Source: Thermoplasmata archaeon
Lineage (GTDB): Archaea; Thermoplasmatota; Thermoplasmata; Thermoplasmatales; Thermoplasmataceae
Direction of reading: 5' to 3'
Length of the DNA stretch: 64,000 nucleotides
Assembly: GCA_021806235.1 (NCBI GenBank)
Contig: JAJZXU010000017.1
Span: forward strand, 62,001 to 126,000
Below the pieces are notes generated by a model, which saw nothing but the letters and a program-made list of their open reading frames with translations, was not told the origin of the DNA and made no database searches. A program made the position numbers and the translations under genes. This document shows, one piece after another, positions 2,771-64,000 of the stretch; within the stretch, counting starts at the first letter, position 1, and every line of letters starts with the position of its first letter.

Positions 2771-3028
2771 TCACCTTCTCAATCTATTATCATTGATTAT
2801 TTTGTGGCGTAGTTTAAAAATATATCTAATTATCATAACCTCCGCTATAAGTGGTATTAATGCTATGGATTCTACAATAATTCTTATATTAACCGGGCGG
2901 ATATAATTACTAATTATCAGTATTAAACCAAAAATGCCTGGCATAAAAAAATTGATAACAATAAGTTTTGTAAGTTTTTGTTGATCTCGACCACTTTTAT
3001 ATAAATCTTTATTTTTATTATTTTCCAT
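2771..3028 (-). CDS. Small two-helix membrane protein, putative immunity partner of cassette B
   Basis: The 85-residue protein starts with an ATG directly abutting the TAA of the precursor at 3029 (TAAATG), which implies coupled translation. It has a charged N-terminus with many Lys and Asn (residues 1-22), two hydrophobic helices (about 23-44 and 48-70) and a basic tail ending LRR. That predicts both ends facing the cytoplasm. It shares topology but little sequence with the other partners, as expected if each partner recognises a different toxin end. No known family was recognised. Confidence 0.55.
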   Translation of the reverse strand: MENNKNKDLYKSGRDQQKLTKLIVINFFMPGIFGLILIISNYIRPVNIRIIVESIALIPLIAEVMIIRYIFKLRHKIINDNRLRR

Positions 3029-3571
3029 TTACCAACCTCCAAAGCAGGCATTGCCTGCATGATAAACTGCACCCATTGTAAGACCAATAGATATGCCTGT
3101 ACCGATTAAAAACGCTATGCCTATCAATACACTTGTACCCCCTGTTAATGGAGCAACACTAAATAGTGCAGAAGCTATAAACCACGCAATAATAGTTCCT
3201 GCAAGTGATAGTATAGCATTTATGCAACCCCAGTTCCAGTCTATTATTATTGATTCAGTATGACTAACCTCTATATTCTTAACATTACTGTTTGTATATC
3301 CCAGCATATTACCCATTGCCAATGCTATATAGCCATACTCTATTCCGAATTTATGCATCGTGTTATTACTGGAACCCATATAATTCATGGATATTAATTC
3401 AATAGAATTTATTAATGTTTTCATCTGATTGCCATATGATGACTTATAGTTTATATTAAACTCATTGCCGAATAATATTTTAGAGGAATTTACTGTTACT
3501 ATGTTTGCATAGATGTATGATGTATTCTTGCTGTTATTACTGAATTTTAGAATTATCATTTTTTTGATCAT
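3029..3571 (-). CDS. Orphan C-terminal half of a bacteriocin-like precursor (cassette B)
   Basis: The 180-residue product joins the family alignment at NNSKNTSYIYANIV, equivalent to residue ~141 of the full-length copy at 3793, and lacks a signal peptide. It then has the conserved module (SSYGNQMKTLINSIELIS; HKFGIEYGYIALAMGNML), the junction DWNWGC, and a hydrophobic domain with TGGTSVLIG ending in NACFGGW. The C-terminal end resembles that of the 3793 copy (NNCFGGW), so these two toxin ends are cousins. Its first codons overlap the end of the upstream partner gene. Two Cys, one at the junction and one near the C-terminus, could form a disulfide. Confidence 0.6.
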   Translation of the reverse strand: MIKKMIILKFSNNSKNTSYIYANIVTVNSSKILFGNEFNINYKSSYGNQMKTLINSIELISMNYMGSSNNTMHKFGIEYGYIALAMGNMLGYTNSNVKNIEVSHTESIIIDWNWGCINAILSLAGTIIAWFIASALFSVAPLTGGTSVLIGIAFLIGTGISIGLTMGAVYHAGNACFGGW

Positions 3572-3791
3572 CTAAATTCTGTTTTTTCATGAACTTAAAA
3601 ATAATTATAAAAAGTATAACCAGTGTGGCAAGCATGATAGATAGTATTAAGCTAATAATTTCTACTTCTCTCTTAATAAAAAAATCATATAAAAATGTTA
3701 TAAGGTATAAAACCGATGCCGATGATTCAAAAATTACTGCAAGAATAAAAAGTTTCCATTGCCTCTTTAATCGTTTAACAGTGTCCAGCAT
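3537..3791 (-). CDS. Small two-helix membrane protein, putative immunity partner of the full-length precursor
   Basis: I chose the ATG at 3791, one base after the TAG of the precursor at 3793 (TAG-G-ATG). The upstream part of the longer open frame only shadows that gene. The 84-residue product has a basic N-terminus (MLDTVKRLKRQWK), two hydrophobic helices (about 14-35 and 44-67) and a polar tail. Its last ~35 bases overlap the start of the next cassette. Its position and topology match the partners at 2771, 38604 and 39277. Function as an immunity protein is inferred from the arrangement only. Confidence 0.55.
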   Translation of the reverse strand: MLDTVKRLKRQWKLFILAVIFESSASVLYLITFLYDFFIKREVEIISLILSIMLATLVILFIIIFKFMKKQNLDDQKNDNSKIQ

Positions 3792-3792
3792 C

Positions 3793-4716
3793 CTACCAGC
3801 CTCCAAAGCAATTATTTCCATCATGGTAAACAGATAATGCCAGTGAACCAAGCCCAATACCCAAACTAGCTAAGATTCCCAATCCAAGAAGCACACTTGT
3901 ACCTCCAGTTGCAGCACCAAAAATCACTAATCCGATAGTTATCCCCGCTAATACCAAAATAGTTCCTATCATGCTTAAAATGCAATTCCAGTTATAGTCT
4001 ATTATTATTGATTCGGTGTGATTGATTTCTATGTTTTTAATATTTTTATTTGTATCCTTAAACATATTACCCATTGCCAATGCTATATAGCCATATTCTA
4101 TCCCGAATTTATGCATCGTATTATTACTGGAACCCATATAATTCATAGATATTAATTCAATAGAATTTATTAATGTTTTCATCTGGTTGCCGTATGTAGA
4201 TCTATAATTCAGGTTGAATTCATTGCCCAGCAATATCTTGGATGAGTTTAGGGGAACTATATTTGCATAGATGTATGAGGTATTCTTGCTATTGTTACCG
4301 GATATTATATCTGCTATTTCCACCTTGTAATTATTAAACCTCTCTGTAAATGCAATGGAATATCTTATATTAGAATTGTTATAGTACTGCACTAAATAAT
4401 TTGTGCTGTTTGTTTTTATATAATTTGATTTGTATGGTGTAACATTATTATTACTGGCATTATCCTTATATGAGTATATGCTGTTTATTGATGTTTTATT
4501 GATACTGTTAAAATTTATAGCTCCACTCTTGGATACAGCATAATTGTGCATGAATGTAATATTATTTATTTTTACAGATTTATCTGTATCATTATTTGAA
4601 GCGGTTTTTTCATCTATACGGTTAATATTATTTAATGGTGCGGTATTAAAGGATATCATGATAAACATTGTAACTACTAAAATGGATATGGCTATTACTA
4701 TATTACTTCTCCTCAT
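3793..4716 (-). CDS. Full-length secreted bacteriocin-like precursor
   Basis: This 307-residue protein has an uncleaved-looking signal segment (residues 3-25, VIAISILVVTMFIMISF), an Asn/Ser/Thr-rich extracellular region (26-140), a conserved module (141-240, with TLINSIELISMNYMGSS and HKFGIEYGYIALAMGNM), the junction DYNWNC (240-245), and a hydrophobic Gly-rich C-terminal domain (246-300) that ends NNCFGGW. The N-terminal 240 residues align with the copy at 39507. By analogy with halocin C8, whose precursor combines a long N-terminal part with a Cys-containing toxin end, the C-terminal ~65 residues may be released as a membrane-active peptide. That is inference. A partner gene follows one base after the stop, and a TATTA repeat abuts the ATG. 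Confidence 0.65.
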   Translation of the reverse strand: MRRSNIVIAISILVVTMFIMISFNTAPLNNINRIDEKTASNNDTDKSVKINNITFMHNYAVSKSGAINFNSINKTSINSIYSYKDNASNNNVTPYKSNYIKTNSTNYLVQYYNNSNIRYSIAFTERFNNYKVEIADIISGNNSKNTSYIYANIVPLNSSKILLGNEFNLNYRSTYGNQMKTLINSIELISMNYMGSSNNTMHKFGIEYGYIALAMGNMFKDTNKNIKNIEINHTESIIIDYNWNCILSMIGTILVLAGITIGLVIFGAATGGTSVLLGLGILASLGIGLGSLALSVYHDGNNCFGGW

Positions 4717-4742
4717 AATATAATATAATATAATATAATATA
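4717..4742 (-). repeat. TATTA pentanucleotide repeat abutting a start codon
   Basis: On the minus strand about five copies of TATTA run straight into the ATG of the precursor at 4716, the last copy supplying the A of ATG. The same arrangement, with six copies, precedes the G1 peptidase start at 61590. The repeat replaces any Shine-Dalgarno site and could change promoter or leader length by slippage. Confidence 0.7.
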
Positions 4743-4882
4743 TAAATATTTCTATGCATTTAATAATAGATGATGTTCTGAAATTGATTTACATAAAAAG
4801 TTACATATAGGTACAAAATTGTTATCAAAATCAGTAAAAAAAGACAGTTACAAATAAGGGTTTAAAAAAATATCAGTCCCTG

Positions 4883-5071
4883 TTATGTAAAATGGACGGG
4901 GTTAAGAATTGAAGTAATATTATTAATGTTTATATAACTGCTTTTAACGTTGTTTTTAACATTATTGGCATTGTTTATATCATTATGATTGACAGGAGAA
5001 TAAGCAATCATTATAAACATGGCAACAACAATTAACGATGCTATTATTATGTATAATTGACCTCTCCGCAT
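4883..5071 (-). pseudogene. N-terminal remnant of a bacteriocin-like precursor
   Basis: From the ATG at 5071 the 62-residue product begins MRRGQLYIIIASLIVVAMFI, a signal segment like those at 4716 and 40463. It continues through an Asn-rich stretch to ININNIT, which matches VKINNITFM of the two full-length copies. After that the family sequence is lost and the frame stops. It is therefore the broken 5' end of another copy upstream of the array. It could still produce a short signal-anchor peptide, but nothing suggests that it does. Confidence 0.6.
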
Positions 5072-38603: not shown

Positions 38604-38828
38604 TTAAATTTTACCATTGTGATGATGGTTAAATTTGTGGGAAAACATAATAATTGCGAATATAATCCCACCTGTTATAATAAATATGGTTGCATATATT
38701 TCAATATAGTTATGATATATTACACCTACAGTTATATAGAATATTGATGCTATGCTTATTAATATTATTTCTATGATAGCCAGAATCTTGCGTTTTGAAC
38801 TATATATTTTAAACTTTTTATTATCCAT
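38604..38828 (-). CDS. Small two-helix membrane protein, putative immunity partner of cassette D
   Basis: The ATG at 38828 gives 74 residues; a GTG at 38837, directly after the TAG of the upstream precursor, is also possible. The protein has a Lys-rich N-terminus (MDNKKFKIYSSKRK), two hydrophobic helices (about 15-35 and 43-62) and a His-rich basic tail (HKFNHHHNGK). It repeats the pattern of the 1.3-5 kb array. The call rests on position and topology. Confidence 0.55.
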   Translation of the reverse strand: MDNKKFKIYSSKRKILAIIEIILISIASIFYITVGVIYHNYIEIYATIFIITGGIIFAIIMFSHKFNHHHNGKI

Positions 38829-38837
38829 AATAACCAC

Positions 38838-39248
38838 CTAACACGATAAAATTATGCCACCCGGGCCTATGTCCATGCCTATTAACAATAAACTTAAACC
38901 TAGTATTGCCCAGTCCACAGGTCCCCCGAAAACTAAAAACATAAGCAAAGCTAATTCAAATGAAGACACCGCTAAAACTGTACCGAGAAAACTGAAAATA
39001 CAAACCAGATTATAGTCTATTACTATACTCTCGGTTCCATTTATTTGCATATTCTTAATATTGTTATTTGTAAATCCTAGCATACTATTCATTGCTGTGG
39101 TTATATATGAATATTCTATACCGAATTTATTTAATGTACTATTAGAATTCATATAACCAAATGATATTGATTCTATACTATTTATTAATGTTTTCATTTC
39201 ATTGTTATACATTTGTTCTCCAAGATACAATAAATTTTGTGATGCCAT
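38838..39248 (-). CDS. Orphan C-terminal half of a bacteriocin-like precursor (cassette D)
   Basis: The 136-residue product starts just before the conserved module (NNEMKTLINSIESISFGYM; NKFGIEYSYITTAMNSMLGF) and lacks a signal peptide. Its module is nearly identical to that of the full-length copy at 39507. The C-terminal domain after DYNLVC is unrelated in detail: hydrophobic, with FGGPVDWAILGL and a C-terminal Cys (ILSC). The stop codon is followed at once by the partner gene. It has the layout of a silent cassette. Confidence 0.6.
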   Translation of the reverse strand: MASQNLLYLGEQMYNNEMKTLINSIESISFGYMNSNSTLNKFGIEYSYITTAMNSMLGFTNNNIKNMQINGTESIVIDYNLVCIFSFLGTVLAVSSFELALLMFLVFGGPVDWAILGLSLLLIGMDIGPGGIILSC

Positions 39249-39276: not shown

Positions 39277-39498
39277 TTATTTTTTTATTTTTCTATATAT
39301 GTACTTATTCGGTATTATTCTGAATAATAAAAGTATAAATGTTATCAATGAAAATACAGATAAAGAAATAGAAAGATACATCATAGAATAGTTAAAATAA
39401 CTTCTATTTTCGCCCATGTAATAAGAAATAAAAACAGTGAAAAAAACAAAGGAGGCGACACCAAAGTAAAATGTCATATATTTTTTAGCATCTACCAT
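39277..39498 (-). CDS. Small two-helix membrane protein, putative immunity partner of the second full-length precursor
   Basis: I use the ATG at 39498 (73 residues). A GTG at 39510 would overlap the precursor stop by four bases (GTGA), giving 77 residues. The product has two hydrophobic helices (about 8-26 and 38-60) separated by a short polar loop with GENRSYFNYS, and a strongly basic tail ending YIYRKIKK. It matches the other partners in size, topology and coupling. Confidence 0.55.
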   Translation of the reverse strand: MVDAKKYMTFYFGVASFVFFTVFISYYMGENRSYFNYSMMYLSISLSVFSLITFILLLFRIIPNKYIYRKIKK

Positions 39499-39506
39499 AA
39501 TATAAA

Positions 39507-40463
39507 TCACACCCCGTCGATTATGATATTGGGATTAACATAACCGCATGCCAAAATCATATTTATAGTCCCTGTCATCTCAAAAAATCCCGAGAAACCA
39601 AAAGCCACATATGACGCTATTACAAATATGAGTGCCATGCCTCCAGTGGCAATTACAAGACTAATAATAGATAATGCCAGAAGGAAACTAAGCATGCCTA
39701 ATTCTATTACTCTGTATATACAATTCCAATTGTAATCTATTAATATACTCTCGGTTCCATTTATTTGCATATTCTTAATATTGTTATTTGTAAACCCTAG
39801 CATACTATTCATTGCTGTGGCTATATATGAATATTCTATACCGAATTTATTTAATGTATTATTATTAGAATTCATATAACCAAATGATATTAGTTCTATA
39901 CTATTTATTAATGTTTTCATTTCATTATTGTATGATGATTTATAGTTTAGAGTAAACTCATTCCCCAATAATATCTTAGAAGAATTTAATGGTACAATGT
40001 TGGCATAAATATCCGATATATTTTCATTGTTGTGTTTGAATATTATATCTGCAATCTGAACCTTATAGTCATTGAATTTCTCGGTAAATGTCATTGCGTG
40101 TGTTATATTGCTATTTTTATCGAAATTGAATGATGTATAATTCATATAATTATTCTTTGTGATATTTTTATGTATTGAAGTGTATGATGTTATGTTGTTT
40201 GTAATATTATCATTACTTTTTATATTATTTTTATATGCATAAATATTGTTTATGGAAGTTTTATTTATGTTGTTTGTTTTTATTATGCCATTATTGGAAA
40301 CATTAAAATTATTCATGAATGTAATATTATTTATTTTTACATAATTATTATTTTTGTTATAATTGATATTATTGATATTATTATCAACAGGCGATGAATA
40401 TGCAATCATTAAAAACATTGTAGCAATCACTATCGATATTATCATTATATATCTCTGTTTCAT
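39507..40463 (-). CDS. Second full-length secreted bacteriocin-like precursor
   Basis: The 318-residue protein has a signal segment (MIISIVIATMFLMIAYSS), an extremely Asn-rich region (residues 28-140), then FTEKFNDYKVQIADII and DIYANIVPLNSSKILLGNEF, which match the copy at 3793 almost word for word. The conserved module (NNEMKTLINSIELISFGYM) follows. After DYNWNC comes a hydrophobic domain (LSFLLALSIISLVIATGGMALIF) and, unlike its relatives, an extra polar tail after ACG (YVNPNIIIDGV). A partner gene and an orphan cassette follow. Membrane-active toxin release from the C-terminus is inferred. Confidence 0.65.
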   Translation of the reverse strand: MKQRYIMIISIVIATMFLMIAYSSPVDNNINNINYNKNNNYVKINNITFMNNFNVSNNGIIKTNNINKTSINNIYAYKNNIKSNDNITNNITSYTSIHKNITKNNYMNYTSFNFDKNSNITHAMTFTEKFNDYKVQIADIIFKHNNENISDIYANIVPLNSSKILLGNEFTLNYKSSYNNEMKTLINSIELISFGYMNSNNNTLNKFGIEYSYIATAMNSMLGFTNNNIKNMQINGTESILIDYNWNCIYRVIELGMLSFLLALSIISLVIATGGMALIFVIASYVAFGFSGFFEMTGTINMILACGYVNPNIIIDGV

Positions 40464-59748: not shown

Positions 59749-59811
59749 ATCTCTAAAATGTGCATGGCATACTTAACATTTTGTAAATAGGAGTAACAGT
59801 ACACATAAATA

Positions 59812-61098
59812 CTACAGACTAACTGGATAAACTATTAACAACCATTTCCACAGTGGCATTACGTTTATTGTTGCACCATCTATTTTTATGGTGCGCTCAG
59901 CATCCCAGGTAAGAATTAATAAATCGTTGCAGTTCACTTCTATGGACGCCTTGAGTAAAGATATTACCTCTCTGCGATAATTTTCATCCGTAAGTTCATA
60001 TGAAACCTGCACTAACTGAATTACTTTATCTGCACTCTTAAGTAAAAAATCAACTTCAGTACCCCCCTCGTTAAAATAATACACGTCAAGTAAGGGGTCG
60101 ATATTCTTTCTTCTCAGTAATTCAAGAAATACCACATTTTCTAATAACCTGCCCCTGTCCTCCGAAAATCTCTGTGTTTTTGATAGCCCTGTATCTGCTA
60201 TATAGATTTTTTTAGGCCATGAAGCTCTAAGATGTACTTTTTTTGAATATCTATCCACAAAGAAGAACAGCGATGTATCCTGTAGTTTGTCGATGTAGTC
60301 GTATACTGTATTGTTAGATATATTTATCCCGGAACTTTTGGCTTTTTCAAAGAACGACCTGATAGACGCTTCACTAGAGAAGTTCTGTATCATAGTCTGG
60401 TGTAAATACCTGGCAAGACCTATATTCTTTACTCCCTGCCTTTCTATGAACTCTCTAAAGAGTGCAAGTTCAGAATATTCTTTGAGAATCTTTATTTTGT
60501 CTTCGTTGAGAACAACCTCTGGAAAACCACCGAATTCTAAATATTCAGATAGAAGTTTACGCAATTTTGCTTCATCATCTTTTGTCTGGTATTTTTTAAC
60601 TGTTATTTTTTTTGCATTTAGAAATTCCCTGAAACTGAACGGAAGCATTAAATAAGAGAGTGTATGTCCCCTTAATTGCGTGGCTATTTCTCTCGCCATA
60701 AGTTTTGAAGAGGAGCTGGTTATAAATATGCCATATTTTTTGATATCGTGAAGTTCCCTGACCATAATTTCCCAGCCAGTCACATTTTGAATTTCATCTA
60801 ACAGGATGTTTTGTGGCTCCACACCAAAGTTTTCTATGTATATTCTGATTACATCCCTTATTTCACCTACTTTTATACCATAAAACCGGGAATCTTCAAA
60901 ATTCAAATAAAGCGATTTTTTAAGCACCTTTTCAAGCTGAAAAAAATAATAGGTTTTTCCCGCTCTTCTTGGCCCAAAAAGTGATATAATAAATCTCGTA
61001 TTCGTTGGTACTTTTAGCTCTCTATCAAGTATGGCCGGCTTCAGGTGCAAATACTCATTAAAGTAATCTATTATTCCATCTCTATCCATAGTAGTCAT
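59812..61098 (-). CDS. AAA ATPase with DUF4143 domain
   Basis: The 428-residue protein has the AAA_14 Walker A SLFGPRRAGKTYYFFQLE, Walker B NILLDEIQNVTGWE, a sensor FITSSSSKLMARE, the QLRGHTLSYLMLPFSFREFL arginine-bearing segment, and a DUF4143 nuclease-like C-terminus with YYFNEGGTEVDFLLKS ... VIQLVQVSYELTDENYRREVISLL. Such proteins are patchily distributed and often mobile; their function is unknown. It lies in the accessory right part of the window with the AhpD-like gene. Confidence 0.88.
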   Translation of the reverse strand: MTTMDRDGIIDYFNEYLHLKPAILDRELKVPTNTRFIISLFGPRRAGKTYYFFQLEKVLKKSLYLNFEDSRFYGIKVGEIRDVIRIYIENFGVEPQNILLDEIQNVTGWEIMVRELHDIKKYGIFITSSSSKLMAREIATQLRGHTLSYLMLPFSFREFLNAKKITVKKYQTKDDEAKLRKLLSEYLEFGGFPEVVLNEDKIKILKEYSELALFREFIERQGVKNIGLARYLHQTMIQNFSSEASIRSFFEKAKSSGINISNNTVYDYIDKLQDTSLFFFVDRYSKKVHLRASWPKKIYIADTGLSKTQRFSEDRGRLLENVVFLELLRRKNIDPLLDVYYFNEGGTEVDFLLKSADKVIQLVQVSYELTDENYRREVISLLKASIEVNCNDLLILTWDAERTIKIDGATINVMPLWKWLLIVYPVSL

Positions 61099-61589
61099 AA
61101 TGAAGATAATATTTATAAATATTATCTTTATAATAGAGACAATTTAACAATAACCATTAAATCCTAAATGATTTAACGGTTTTCTAGAAATAGATTCAGT
61201 AGAATCCGGGTGTGAGCTATATCACAAAAACCCTGACACTTTGTGACCAATTTTAATGGGTACTTTCCATTACTTTTTTATTTTTTTATACCTTCTATGC
61301 TTTCTTTCAATTTTTTTAAATAGAACCTGTATTCTTCCCTGAAACATACAAACCAGACCCGATTGAAGATTATAGTGAGATGCCAGCGAAATAATATTAC
61401 CTAAAACCCTTATAATCAATATTATTAAAATTGATATTTAACAGATAACTAAATATAAAAAGCATAATTTAGACATTAATTCTATGAATCTACTTACAAT
61501 TATCATTAATAAACAATAATTATGTATCAATTTAATATTAACTATATAATAATATTTATATATTATATTATATTATATTATATTATATT
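61099..61589. other. Gene-free interval with a possible gene remnant
   Basis: No intact gene is visible. The minus strand at about 61280-61370 reads NRVWFVCFREEYRFYLKKLK to a nearby stop, protein-like but without a start. Runs of T at 61270-61310 and the A/T-rich 61480-61589 stretch, which leads into the TATTA repeat, probably contain the promoter of the peptidase gene. Confidence 0.3.
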
Positions 61590-61590
61590 A
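61561..61590 (+). repeat. Six TATTA repeats abutting the peptidase start codon
   Basis: Six perfect copies of TATTA end at 61590, where the last A begins the ATG. The bacteriocin-like precursor at 4716 has the same design with about five copies. Variation in copy number could tune expression. Confidence 0.8.
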
Positions 61591-62519
61591 TGAAGAGAAG
61601 TAATATAATAATAACCATAACCATTCTGATAGTTACAATGTTTGTTATGATGGCATTTAATACAATCCCGTTAAATAACTTCAGTGTGCCTTCTGAAAAT
61701 AGTATAACCAATACAGGTATGGTCAATACAGTACCTTCCTTGGCCAAAAGTTCAGCAACGTATGGACATGCAAAAAGAATGGAAGTGTATAATGGCGGAA
61801 ATAACAATGTTGCAAAGTATAGTACTGACGGTAACTGGGCGGGGTATGTTCTTACATCCAGTAATCCAGATTTCCAAGCAATTTGTGGCTCATGGATTGT
61901 TCAGACTGTTTCTTCTTCACCCTATGGTAACTCTGCCCAGTGGATAGGCATTGGAGGAGTTGGCAACAGTAAATTAATACAAACCGGTACAGCTTCAGAT
62001 GCAGGATCTGGTGACATAAGCTATCAGGCATGGTATGAACTTCTTCCAAATGCACCGGTATATTTATCCCTGAATGTAAAACCTGGAAATATCATGTCTG
62101 CATCCATTTCTGATAATACAGTAAATGGCAATTCCTGGACCATTTTCATAAAAGATGTAACATCGGGCAAATCATATACTACTACTGTATCTTACAACCC
62201 GTGCATGAAGTCTGCTGAGTGGATAGAGGAAAGACCTAACATGAGCCCCTACACTCTTGCCAACTTTGGGACAGCCAAATTTGGATCCTATTACACTGGA
62301 GGTACAGCCAATCAGGTAATTTACGGATCCAGTGGATCAGAAAAACCAAAGACCACACAGACCGAACCAGATAGGGTTCCACTTCCTCCAAAATATTATA
62401 TAGGGCAACTTTCCTATACAATGTATAATATAGAATACAATGGACTACTTACCTCAACGTCATCACTGGATGGTACCCCCTGCAGTAGCTTTACGGTAAC
62501 GTGGGAAGGCTCAGGATAA
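61590..62519 (+). CDS. Secreted G1-family (eqolisin) glutamic peptidase
   Basis: The 309-residue protein has a signal segment (IIITITILIVTMFVMMAF), a short pro-region and a G1 peptidase domain: NWAGYVLTS, GSWIVQTV, the catalytic Gln in AQWIGIGG, AWYELLPNAP, and the catalytic Glu in KSAEWIEERP. G1 peptidases use a Gln/Glu pair and work at very low pH, fitting an acidophile that digests protein outside the cell. The first ~30 residues are nearly the same as those of the bacteriocin-like precursor at 4716. G/C content is higher than in that precursor. Confidence 0.88.
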   Translation: MKRSNIIITITILIVTMFVMMAFNTIPLNNFSVPSENSITNTGMVNTVPSLAKSSATYGHAKRMEVYNGGNNNVAKYSTDGNWAGYVLTSSNPDFQAICGSWIVQTVSSSPYGNSAQWIGIGGVGNSKLIQTGTASDAGSGDISYQAWYELLPNAPVYLSLNVKPGNIMSASISDNTVNGNSWTIFIKDVTSGKSYTTTVSYNPCMKSAEWIEERPNMSPYTLANFGTAKFGSYYTGGTANQVIYGSSGSEKPKTTQTEPDRVPLPPKYYIGQLSYTMYNIEYNGLLTSTSSLDGTPCSSFTVTWEGSG

Positions 62520-62589
62520 TAAATTACTTTAAATAATTTGTAATATTATTTTATTATAGTGATAAATGAAATATATAGGGTAATGAGCA

Positions 62590-63489
62590 ATGATAGAGTT
62601 TAGAAATGTGTCCAGGAGATTCGGAAAGATAAGAGCATTAGATTCAGTTAATCTTATAGTTAACAATGGTGAGATAATGGGCCTTGCAGGTATTAACGGT
62701 GCTGGTAAGAGCACGGCCATTAAAATAGCTACAGGCGTAATAAGTCCGGACAGCGGGGATGTACTTATCGATGGTATGAGCATTGTGAGTCAGAGAAGGA
62801 ATGCTATACAGAGTGTTGCATGGATTCCAGAATATCCTGTTCTGGAGAATCTTGACAACCCACGTATTGTATTTTCTGAATTTGGGTCAATGTTCGGTTA
62901 TAATGGGGAGCAGATAAAGGAGAGATCAGAATTAACTTTAAATAAGGTAGGGCTTTCTGAACAGTACAGAGATAGATTTTCATCATTCTCAAACGGAATG
63001 AAAAAGAGGTTCCTGATTGGACTTGCACTCTTTCAGGATCCTGGAACATATCTATTCGACGAATCATTTTCAGGTCTTGATCCTCTGGGGATAAGGTTAC
63101 TTAAAGATATTCTTCTTAATCTCAGAGAAAGAGGAAAATCGGTAATACTATCATCGCATATCCTCTCAGAAATAGAAGAAACCGCAGACAGGGTAGCGAT
63201 ACTGCATCACGGCACAATACTTGATGTAACCAGTATAAGGGAAATAACAAACACAAACAATGTCATAATAAAATGCATGGATAACTCTGAAATGGTGATA
63301 AATATACTTAAGAAAATTGGAAATGTGCACCATAGAAATGATATATACAGAATAAAGGTCACAGATGACACAATCAGAAATGCCAGCGACTTCATGGAAT
63401 ATCTTTCTGGGAAAGAGCTTAAAATAGAGTCTATGAATTATGGGGGTGACACTCTTGAAGAATATTTCCTCAGGAAGATTGGTGCCTAA
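62590..63489 (+). CDS. ABC transporter ATP-binding protein
   Basis: The 299-residue protein has Walker A GINGAGKSTAIK, Q-loop WIPEYPVLENLD, the signature SFSNGMKKRFLIGLAL (variant of LSGGQ), Walker B YLFDESFSGLD and the switch His in LSSHILSEIEE. A C-terminal domain as in CcmA-type exporters follows. It overlaps the next gene by 8 bases. With the peptidase 70 bases upstream on the same strand, it may export or support the secreted products of this locus. Confidence 0.92.
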   Translation: MIEFRNVSRRFGKIRALDSVNLIVNNGEIMGLAGINGAGKSTAIKIATGVISPDSGDVLIDGMSIVSQRRNAIQSVAWIPEYPVLENLDNPRIVFSEFGSMFGYNGEQIKERSELTLNKVGLSEQYRDRFSSFSNGMKKRFLIGLALFQDPGTYLFDESFSGLDPLGIRLLKDILLNLRERGKSVILSSHILSEIEETADRVAILHHGTILDVTSIREITNTNNVIIKCMDNSEMVINILKKIGNVHHRNDIYRIKVTDDTIRNASDFMEYLSGKELKIESMNYGGDTLEEYFLRKIGA

Positions 63490-64000
63490 AAATATTATTT
63501 CTACCCTTAAGCCATTATTCATGAAGGCAAGGGTTATAGCAGTGGTGATAATACTATCCAGTGTATTTATAACTCTGGCCATTGCTGAGGCCCCATCAGT
63601 TGCACCAACTGTGCCTGGCATGCAACCGAAAATACTTTCCATCTGCTACTATAACAATAATACTACCCATTTTGTTAATTTCTACTATGACCAGTACGGA
63701 CAACCAATGAAGGGTGCACGGGTAGCAGATACTATAACCAATAATACAACAGAGCTGAATATTACAAAATGTGCAACAATAAATTCTAATGGATACGCTC
63801 TTATTAACGTGACCGGCAATCTTACAGGTGATCATTATTATTACAGGGTGCCTCCTATACCTCCTGTAAACGCCAGTGCAATAGCTCATACTAACTATGG
63901 TAGATTACGTATTTCCCATGTACCGGTAACAAACAATTTTACCGTTTCCGGTATTGATATGGTGCAGGGTCTTCGCTCCTATGAGAATGCAATACTTTTT
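63482..64000 (+). CDS. ABC-2-type permease with extracellular domain, cut by the window edge
   Basis: From GTG 63482 (ATG 63521 is in frame) the reading is open to the window end, 173 codons. It has one hydrophobic helix (VIAVVIILSSVFITLAIAEA), then an extracellular-looking segment rich in Asn and Thr (FYYDQYGQPMKGARVADTI), with carboxypeptidase-regulatory-like beta structure. The further membrane helices expected of a permease lie beyond the window. The role is inferred from overlap with the ATPase gene. Confidence 0.6.
   Translation, partial: MPKNIISTLKPLFMKARVIAVVIILSSVFITLAIAEAPSVAPTVPGMQPKILSICYYNNNTTHFVNFYYDQYGQPMKGARVADTITNNTTELNITKCATINSNGYALINVTGNLTGDHYYYRVPPIPPVNASAIAHTNYGRLRISHVPVTNNFTVSGIDMVQGLRSYENAILF

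Follow-up and report, generated by a model that had tools for sequence, protein, structure and literature searches.

The closest described counterparts of the genes analysed here belong to several systems. In archaea, halocin C8 is released from a secreted precursor with a hydrophobic C-terminal peptide. In Campylobacter fetus (sap) and Mycoplasma (vsa/vpma), one promoter and 5' end is put on different surface protein genes by site-specific inversion. Polymorphic toxin systems combine a constant N-terminal part with a variable C-terminal module, an adjacent immunity gene and orphan cassettes (Zhang 2012, PMC3482391). A polymorphic architecture does not necessarily denote a toxin, as illustrated by VARTIG in Thermococcales (PMC8416519). 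Here, we analysed a stretch of 64,000 nucleotides (hereafter the window) of a 1.93-Mb genome (G000), which we assigned to the genus Ferroplasma. The initial annotation of this window had noticed that a bacteriocin-like precursor and an acid peptidase, 57 kb apart, begin in the same way. Mix-and-match precursors and an imported acid protease unrelated to them carry the same promoter-plus-signal segment, suggesting that this 5' end travels between genes as a ready-made production and export module.

A 5' unit common to a peptidase and a precursor

Upstream of the peptidase gene (61590–62519, + strand), a TTTATATA box is followed by six ATATT copies (61560–61589) that lead into the ATG at 61590. 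The precursor gene (3793–4716, − strand) is preceded by a TTTATATA box too, with five ATATT copies (4741–4717) before its ATG at 4716; the positions had been given correctly in the initial annotation. The two core promoters, each consisting of AATATTTAT and the ATATT copies up to the start codon, cover 61551–61589 (+) and 4717–4750 (−). They hold the only ATATT arrays of at least three copies in the window, and each array ends exactly at the ATG. The similarity continues in the coding sequence, as codons 1–30 of the peptidase (MKRSNIIITITILIVTMFVMMAFNTIPLNN; 61590–61679, +) share 80% DNA identity with the precursor leader (72 of 90 nt, and 21 of 30 residues), and in the 15-nt blocks after codon 30 identity drops to the background level of 2 to 9 out of 15. 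The likeness first noticed in both DNA and protein is thus real, and it runs through residue 30 rather than ending at residue 28. When the precursor promoter and leader were compared by blastn with the whole genome, the peptidase unit was matched from −34 to codon 30 (E = 5.7e-32, 132 bits, 83% identity).

Local alignment of the two leaders gave a score of 93, to be compared with 16 ± 2.5 (maximum 28) for dinucleotide shuffles, a maximum of 30 for codon shuffles and no more than 29 for the hydrophobic N-termini that these loci have outside the MRRSN/MKRSN leader clade. With null maxima of 28–30, a score of 93 excludes mere hydrophobic composition, which the initial annotation had set against its own proposal, and resemblance by chance was rejected on the same nulls. 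The peptidase and precursor 5' units almost certainly share common descent. Common control of the two genes is plausible in view of their core promoters; a TTTATATA box near −25 is an ordinary archaeal promoter, so that a shared core is no proof of shared regulation.

ATATT arrays and probable 5' end exchange in Ferroplasma

We searched the whole 1.93-Mb genome for long arrays, defined as an exact 21-nt stretch of ATATT array; counts for the reversed pattern, which is the same array in another phase, were not used as a control. This search for further genes with array, ATG and signal sequence, as had been proposed from the window, returned six long arrays, all of them adjoining ORFs that start with a signal-like hydrophobic stretch: three precursors (contigs C8, C23 and C6), the peptidase and two unrelated secreted proteins (C10 and C13). 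The two-gene picture drawn initially has to be widened, the unit being a recurrent module. The genome encodes four near-identical full-length precursors, two of which (C27 and C6; L004 and L005) are without a normal start, indicating that the family is partly decaying. The C6 copy, behind a long array, has ATA in place of ATG, and the C27 copy has only two ATATT copies and a frameshift after the ATG.

The C10 array (six copies) precedes a 192-aa cysteine-containing secreted protein whose gene cluster includes an ABC transporter, and the C13 array precedes a 279-aa bacteriocin-like protein followed by a 4-TM protein. Compared with the precursor leader, the leader DNA of the C10 192-aa protein and of the C13/C25 proteins scored 17–20, within the background, so that with these proteins only the promoter array is shared. 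The C10 cluster (L121, 380–3959, −) continues after the 192-aa protein with a signal/TM protein, an ABC ATPase, a permease and a further secreted ORF; the secreted protein also occurs in the genome G007, together with part of the cluster. The C13 protein (L120, 2333–3577, −) belongs, with loci on C25 (L115) and on C52 of the relative G002 (L170), to another bacteriocin-like or secreted set of 279 and about 408 aa, in which a separate MKRIVVIVITLIVIVS-type leader is shared by at least two different bodies and the ATATT arrays are intact or degenerate.

In G002, arrays are found before precursors (C10, C37 and C48), a leader relic (C12) and the 408-aa secreted protein (C52), and in G005 the C12 array precedes a 696-aa secreted protein. 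The exceptions among the relatives are a G002 array at a contig end (C4) and a short G005 array (C10) with no leader after it. Copy numbers, taken from one assembly per species, are 2, 5, 5 and 5 for the precursors of this genome, 6 for the peptidase, 6 and 5 for the C10 and C13 proteins, 4–7 in G002 and 6 in G005, for an overall range of 2–7. The repeat number between promoter element and start codon differs among copies and relatives, as in phase-variable promoters. An array of five copies places the centre of the TTTATATA box about 25 nt upstream of the ATG, the distance expected for a leaderless archaeal mRNA, so that a copy number between 2 and 7 should affect expression; judging from this spacing, array length should tune or switch expression. 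In precursors that lack the ATATT array, its position is taken by an AT-dinucleotide run or some other AT-rich sequence. One such run, a long one, lies in G005 (L122, upstream of 1807) between a TATA-like box and the precursor ATG.

The 5' unit is also found joined to different bodies. The G002 C37 precursor resembles two window genes in turn: the one at 3793–4716 (P0002-type) between −10 and about +109 (77–93%), and the one at 39507–40463 from about +140 through most of the body (93–100%). The switch point lies near a 30-nt block that is almost identical in all three genes, and the 3' tip is once more a different one. Read in this way, the G002 gene is a mosaic in which this leader precedes a different body. 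Similarly, the 696-aa secreted protein of G005 matches the precursor leaders of that genome up to about codon 41, after which its body is a different one.

We propose that the stretch that begins with the TATA box, includes the ATATT array and ends at about codon 30–45 is probably the 5' module of a polymorphic family of bacteriocin-like secreted proteins in Ferroplasma, an expression-and-export unit moved by recombination; the sequence comparisons argue strongly for reading the 5' unit as a module. Scattered loci would exchange the unit through homologous recombination or gene conversion, and whichever secreted protein came to lie behind the leader would thereby acquire a functional promoter and a signal for export. 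It is possible, though doubtful, that it goes further and constitutes a mobile archaeal expression cassette, made up of a signal sequence and a slippage-prone ATATT array lying between TATA box and start codon. Gene conversion would have distributed this cassette among polymorphic archaeocins, other secreted proteins would have taken it up, copy-number changes would switch members of a secreted arsenal on or off, and fusion would recruit new secreted functions. If our main reading is right, extreme acidophiles would possess a cassette-based bacteriocin-like arsenal for which none of the families tested in Pfam, NCBIfam and PADLOC gives a match, and they would illustrate how an enzyme operon acquired by horizontal transfer can obtain a host promoter and an export signal in a single step.

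The peptidase operon and the source of its leader

The gene at 61590–62519 (+) is predicted to encode a secreted acid peptidase of the G1 glutamic peptidase family (Pfam Peptidase_A4, PF01828; 7e-29, 101.1 bits against a curated cut-off of 22.3). In the alignment with aspergillopepsin II, its Q131 and E214 fall on the QTG and WIVE motifs of that enzyme, whose Gln and Glu positions we take to be the catalytic pair of the family. It is followed by an ABC transporter ATPase (62590–63489, +), a conserved neighbour of the peptidase in other genera, and by a 522-aa ABC-2 permease with an extracellular domain (63440–64000, +), which runs past the window end. Comparison with the nearest relative, G002, places array, leader, peptidase and ABC genes in an inserted segment of ~3.67 kb (+), the in-window part of which spans 61479–64000 and which extends to about 65149: G002 is about 95% identical around the site and has 61 bp in place of the 3.67 kb. 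The genes flanking the insertion site adjoin directly in G004, G005, G006 and G009, and none of the nine other Ferroplasma genomes searched has the peptidase domain or the permease. The same type of ABC gene adjoins the peptidase in other genera (G015, G036, G068 and, by coordinates, G013), where peptidases of this family share at most about 50% identity and have unrelated signal sequences. The inserted genes have a GC content of 38–40%, compared with 31% for the window; since the neighbouring core gene cydA is also at 38.5%, GC alone proves nothing on the origin of the insertion. No target-site duplication or terminal repeat explaining the insertion was recognised at the site. A second insertion relative to G002 (59786–61129), with an AAA_14/DUF4143 ATPase (59812–61098), lies directly beside that of the peptidase and ABC genes.

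In the leader tree, which is weak in detail because the leader is only 90 bp long, the peptidase leader nests among the MRRSN/MKRSN precursor leaders (supports 0.91). As the peptidases of other genera have unrelated starts, this position makes a passage of the leader from precursor to peptidase the better reading of the comparison. The peptidase leader is 22–23% diverged from the intact precursor leaders of G000 and of G002 alike, which makes a recent local copy unlikely. The initial annotation had supposed that the unit was copied to a second secreted protein; its placement on an unrelated peptidase and its nesting within the precursor clade agree with this, but not with a recent copy from 57 kb away, which we rejected as the main reading on divergence and insertion data. 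The simplest reading is that the operon arrived in this genome already fused. The capture of a precursor 5' end by a G1 peptidase operon would have taken place in a lineage resembling Ferroplasma, and the pre-fused operon would then have reached this genome, the peptidase having thereby gained a working promoter and a signal or anchor sequence. The donor is hypothetical, since a peptidase operon bearing this leader was found in no other genome examined.

Other readings of the shared unit have to be weighed. Were the array an AT-rich simple repeat fixed by drift beside start codons, the leader similarity alone would be meaningful; several precursors do carry an AT-dinucleotide run at the array position and copy numbers vary from 2 to 7, as slippage would give, but each of the six long arrays stands directly before a signal-peptide-like ORF, in three cases one whose body is not that of a precursor, and we regard this explanation as rather unlikely. 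Still less probable is a duplication inside the genome that joined the precursor 5' end at 4.7 kb to a peptidase which already stood at 61.6 kb. The two genes do lie on one contig with unit and array in common; however, the peptidase leader is about equidistant from the G000 and G002 precursors, whereas local precursor copies are 95–100% alike over promoter and leader, and the peptidase belongs to an insertion, an operon that none of the other Ferroplasma genomes searched has. This distance might also have arisen if the peptidase leader had been captured locally and had then diverged quickly. The least credible reading, which builds on the cleavage suggested initially, is that peptidase and precursor form a functional pair, the one maturing the other and both having a common leader and promoter for this reason. 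Both genes share the promoter core and signal, and the peptidase keeps the Q131/E214 pair and would be expected to act at low pH. The precursor family, however, occurs in eight of the ten Ferroplasma genomes searched and the peptidase only in this one, so that seven other Ferroplasma genomes carry the family without the peptidase domain, and two sister-genus genomes with the family gave no peptidase match either. In other genera, the conserved partner of the peptidase is the ABC transporter, and the precursor is mostly absent. Cleavage of the precursor by the peptidase is thus unsupported by their distribution, and arrival of a pre-fused operon stays our preferred account of the peptidase leader.

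The precursor family and known systems

Members of the precursor family consist of a leader, an asparagine-rich constant body, a highly conserved neck (residues about 175–240) and a hydrophobic tip of about 50–75 residues, often with a cysteine near both ends. Downstream come a small membrane protein and then leaderless orphans, each with a neck, another tip and another membrane protein. In the window, the full-length precursor at 3793–4716 (−; 307 aa) comprises the leader (codons 1–30), constant body and neck, and a variable hydrophobic tip (NWNC...CFGGW), and is directly followed by an 84-aa 2-TM protein (3537–3791, −) that is its candidate cognate immunity protein. Beyond it lie a first leaderless orphan cassette with neck and a different tip (NWGC...CFGGW; 3029–3571, −), a small 2-TM candidate immunity protein (2771–3028, −), a second orphan with neck and the tip NWWY...ACGW (2337–2762, −), a 3-TM candidate immunity protein (1889–2335, −) and a 76-aa 2-TM protein (1327–1557, −) similar to immunity candidates found after CFGGW/CYGGW tips elsewhere. 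A truncated precursor relic (4883–5071, −) has the leader MRRGQLYIIIASLIVVAMFIM and ~40 residues before a stop. The second full-length precursor (318 aa; 39507–40463, −) has a MKQR-type leader and an AT-dinucleotide run with no ATATT array, and is accompanied by a candidate immunity protein (73 aa, 2 TM; 39277–39498, −) and by an orphan cassette (38838–39248, −) with its own candidate (74 aa, 2 TM; 38604–38828, −). The tip of the orphan at 3029–3571 resembles a G005 tip (0.81), the immunity candidate of which resembles the window ORF at 1327–1557 and not the ORF directly after 3029–3571, so that cassettes seem to have been inserted between partners. In G009 (L126, 3443–7081), inserted genes including a transposase-like ORF part a precursor leader from its body, and this copy is therefore probably dead; in a G002 orphan cassette (L133, 1414–1665), an internal deletion joins the neck to the last tip residues (NNTMH then DAGNVCFGGW).

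Across 32 cassettes, mean normalised similarity is 0.65 for the neck and 0.16 for the tip, and tip similarity correlates with that of the immunity candidate (Mantel r = 0.76, P = 0.0001), whereas neck similarity hardly does (r = 0.10). A small ORF lies directly after the cassette in 32 of 37 distinct cassettes. Besides the three orphan tip-immunity cassettes of the window, arrays of them occur in G002, G005, G006, G026 and G078. The family thus shows the organisation of polymorphic toxin systems: a conserved N-terminal and a hypervariable C-terminal module, a downstream tip-specific immunity candidate and orphan cassettes. The precursor matched no family in Pfam, NCBIfam or PADLOC and no known toxin domain, and Pfam and NCBIfam gave no trafficking domain (RHS, filamentous haemagglutinin or PVC-type) beyond the signal-like leader. 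No paper on this precursor system in Ferroplasma was found in the literature searched, the candidate list of Makarova 2019 lying outside this comparison. Taken together, these features make the precursor look like a polymorphic toxin of archaea that has not been described before. It would most likely deliver its hydrophobic tip as a membrane-active peptide of ~50–75 aa, the adjacent small membrane protein would protect the producer, and the leaderless orphan cassettes would form a stock from which tips and immunity genes are exchanged. An adhesin or variable surface protein, accompanied by an accessory membrane partner, would agree with the asparagine-rich N-terminal body, the lack of a known toxin domain and the VARTIG precedent (PMC8416519), but is an unlikely alternative, as tip and following membrane protein change together, independently of the neck, and the orphan tip-immunity cassettes match the organisation of polymorphic toxins (PMC3482391).

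With polymorphic toxin systems (PMC3482391), the candidate toxin has in common the constant N-terminus, the variable C-terminal module, the adjacent immunity candidate, the orphans and recombination at the neck. It differs in its tip, which is small and hydrophobic (~50–75 aa, often with two cysteines) rather than a nuclease or deaminase, in its immunity candidates, which are proteins of 2–5 TM, and in having no known trafficking domain. Like the archaeocins (halocin C8, sulfolobicins), it is archaeal, secreted and ends in a hydrophobic peptide; it is distinguished from them by candidate immunity encoded in a separate downstream gene, by the exchange of cassettes and by the absence of a Pfam or NCBIfam match for P0002. 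The peptidase shares its domain and the aligned catalytic Gln and Glu with the G1 peptidases (eqolisins) such as aspergillopepsin II, and differs from them by its precursor-type leader and its place in an ABC transporter operon. Finally, as in the sap genes of Campylobacter fetus and the vsa/vpma genes of Mycoplasma, a conserved promoter and N-terminal export part is found on different bodies; in contrast to these systems, the Ferroplasma unit appears to have been moved by homologous recombination or gene conversion, and also to have been captured by unrelated proteins.
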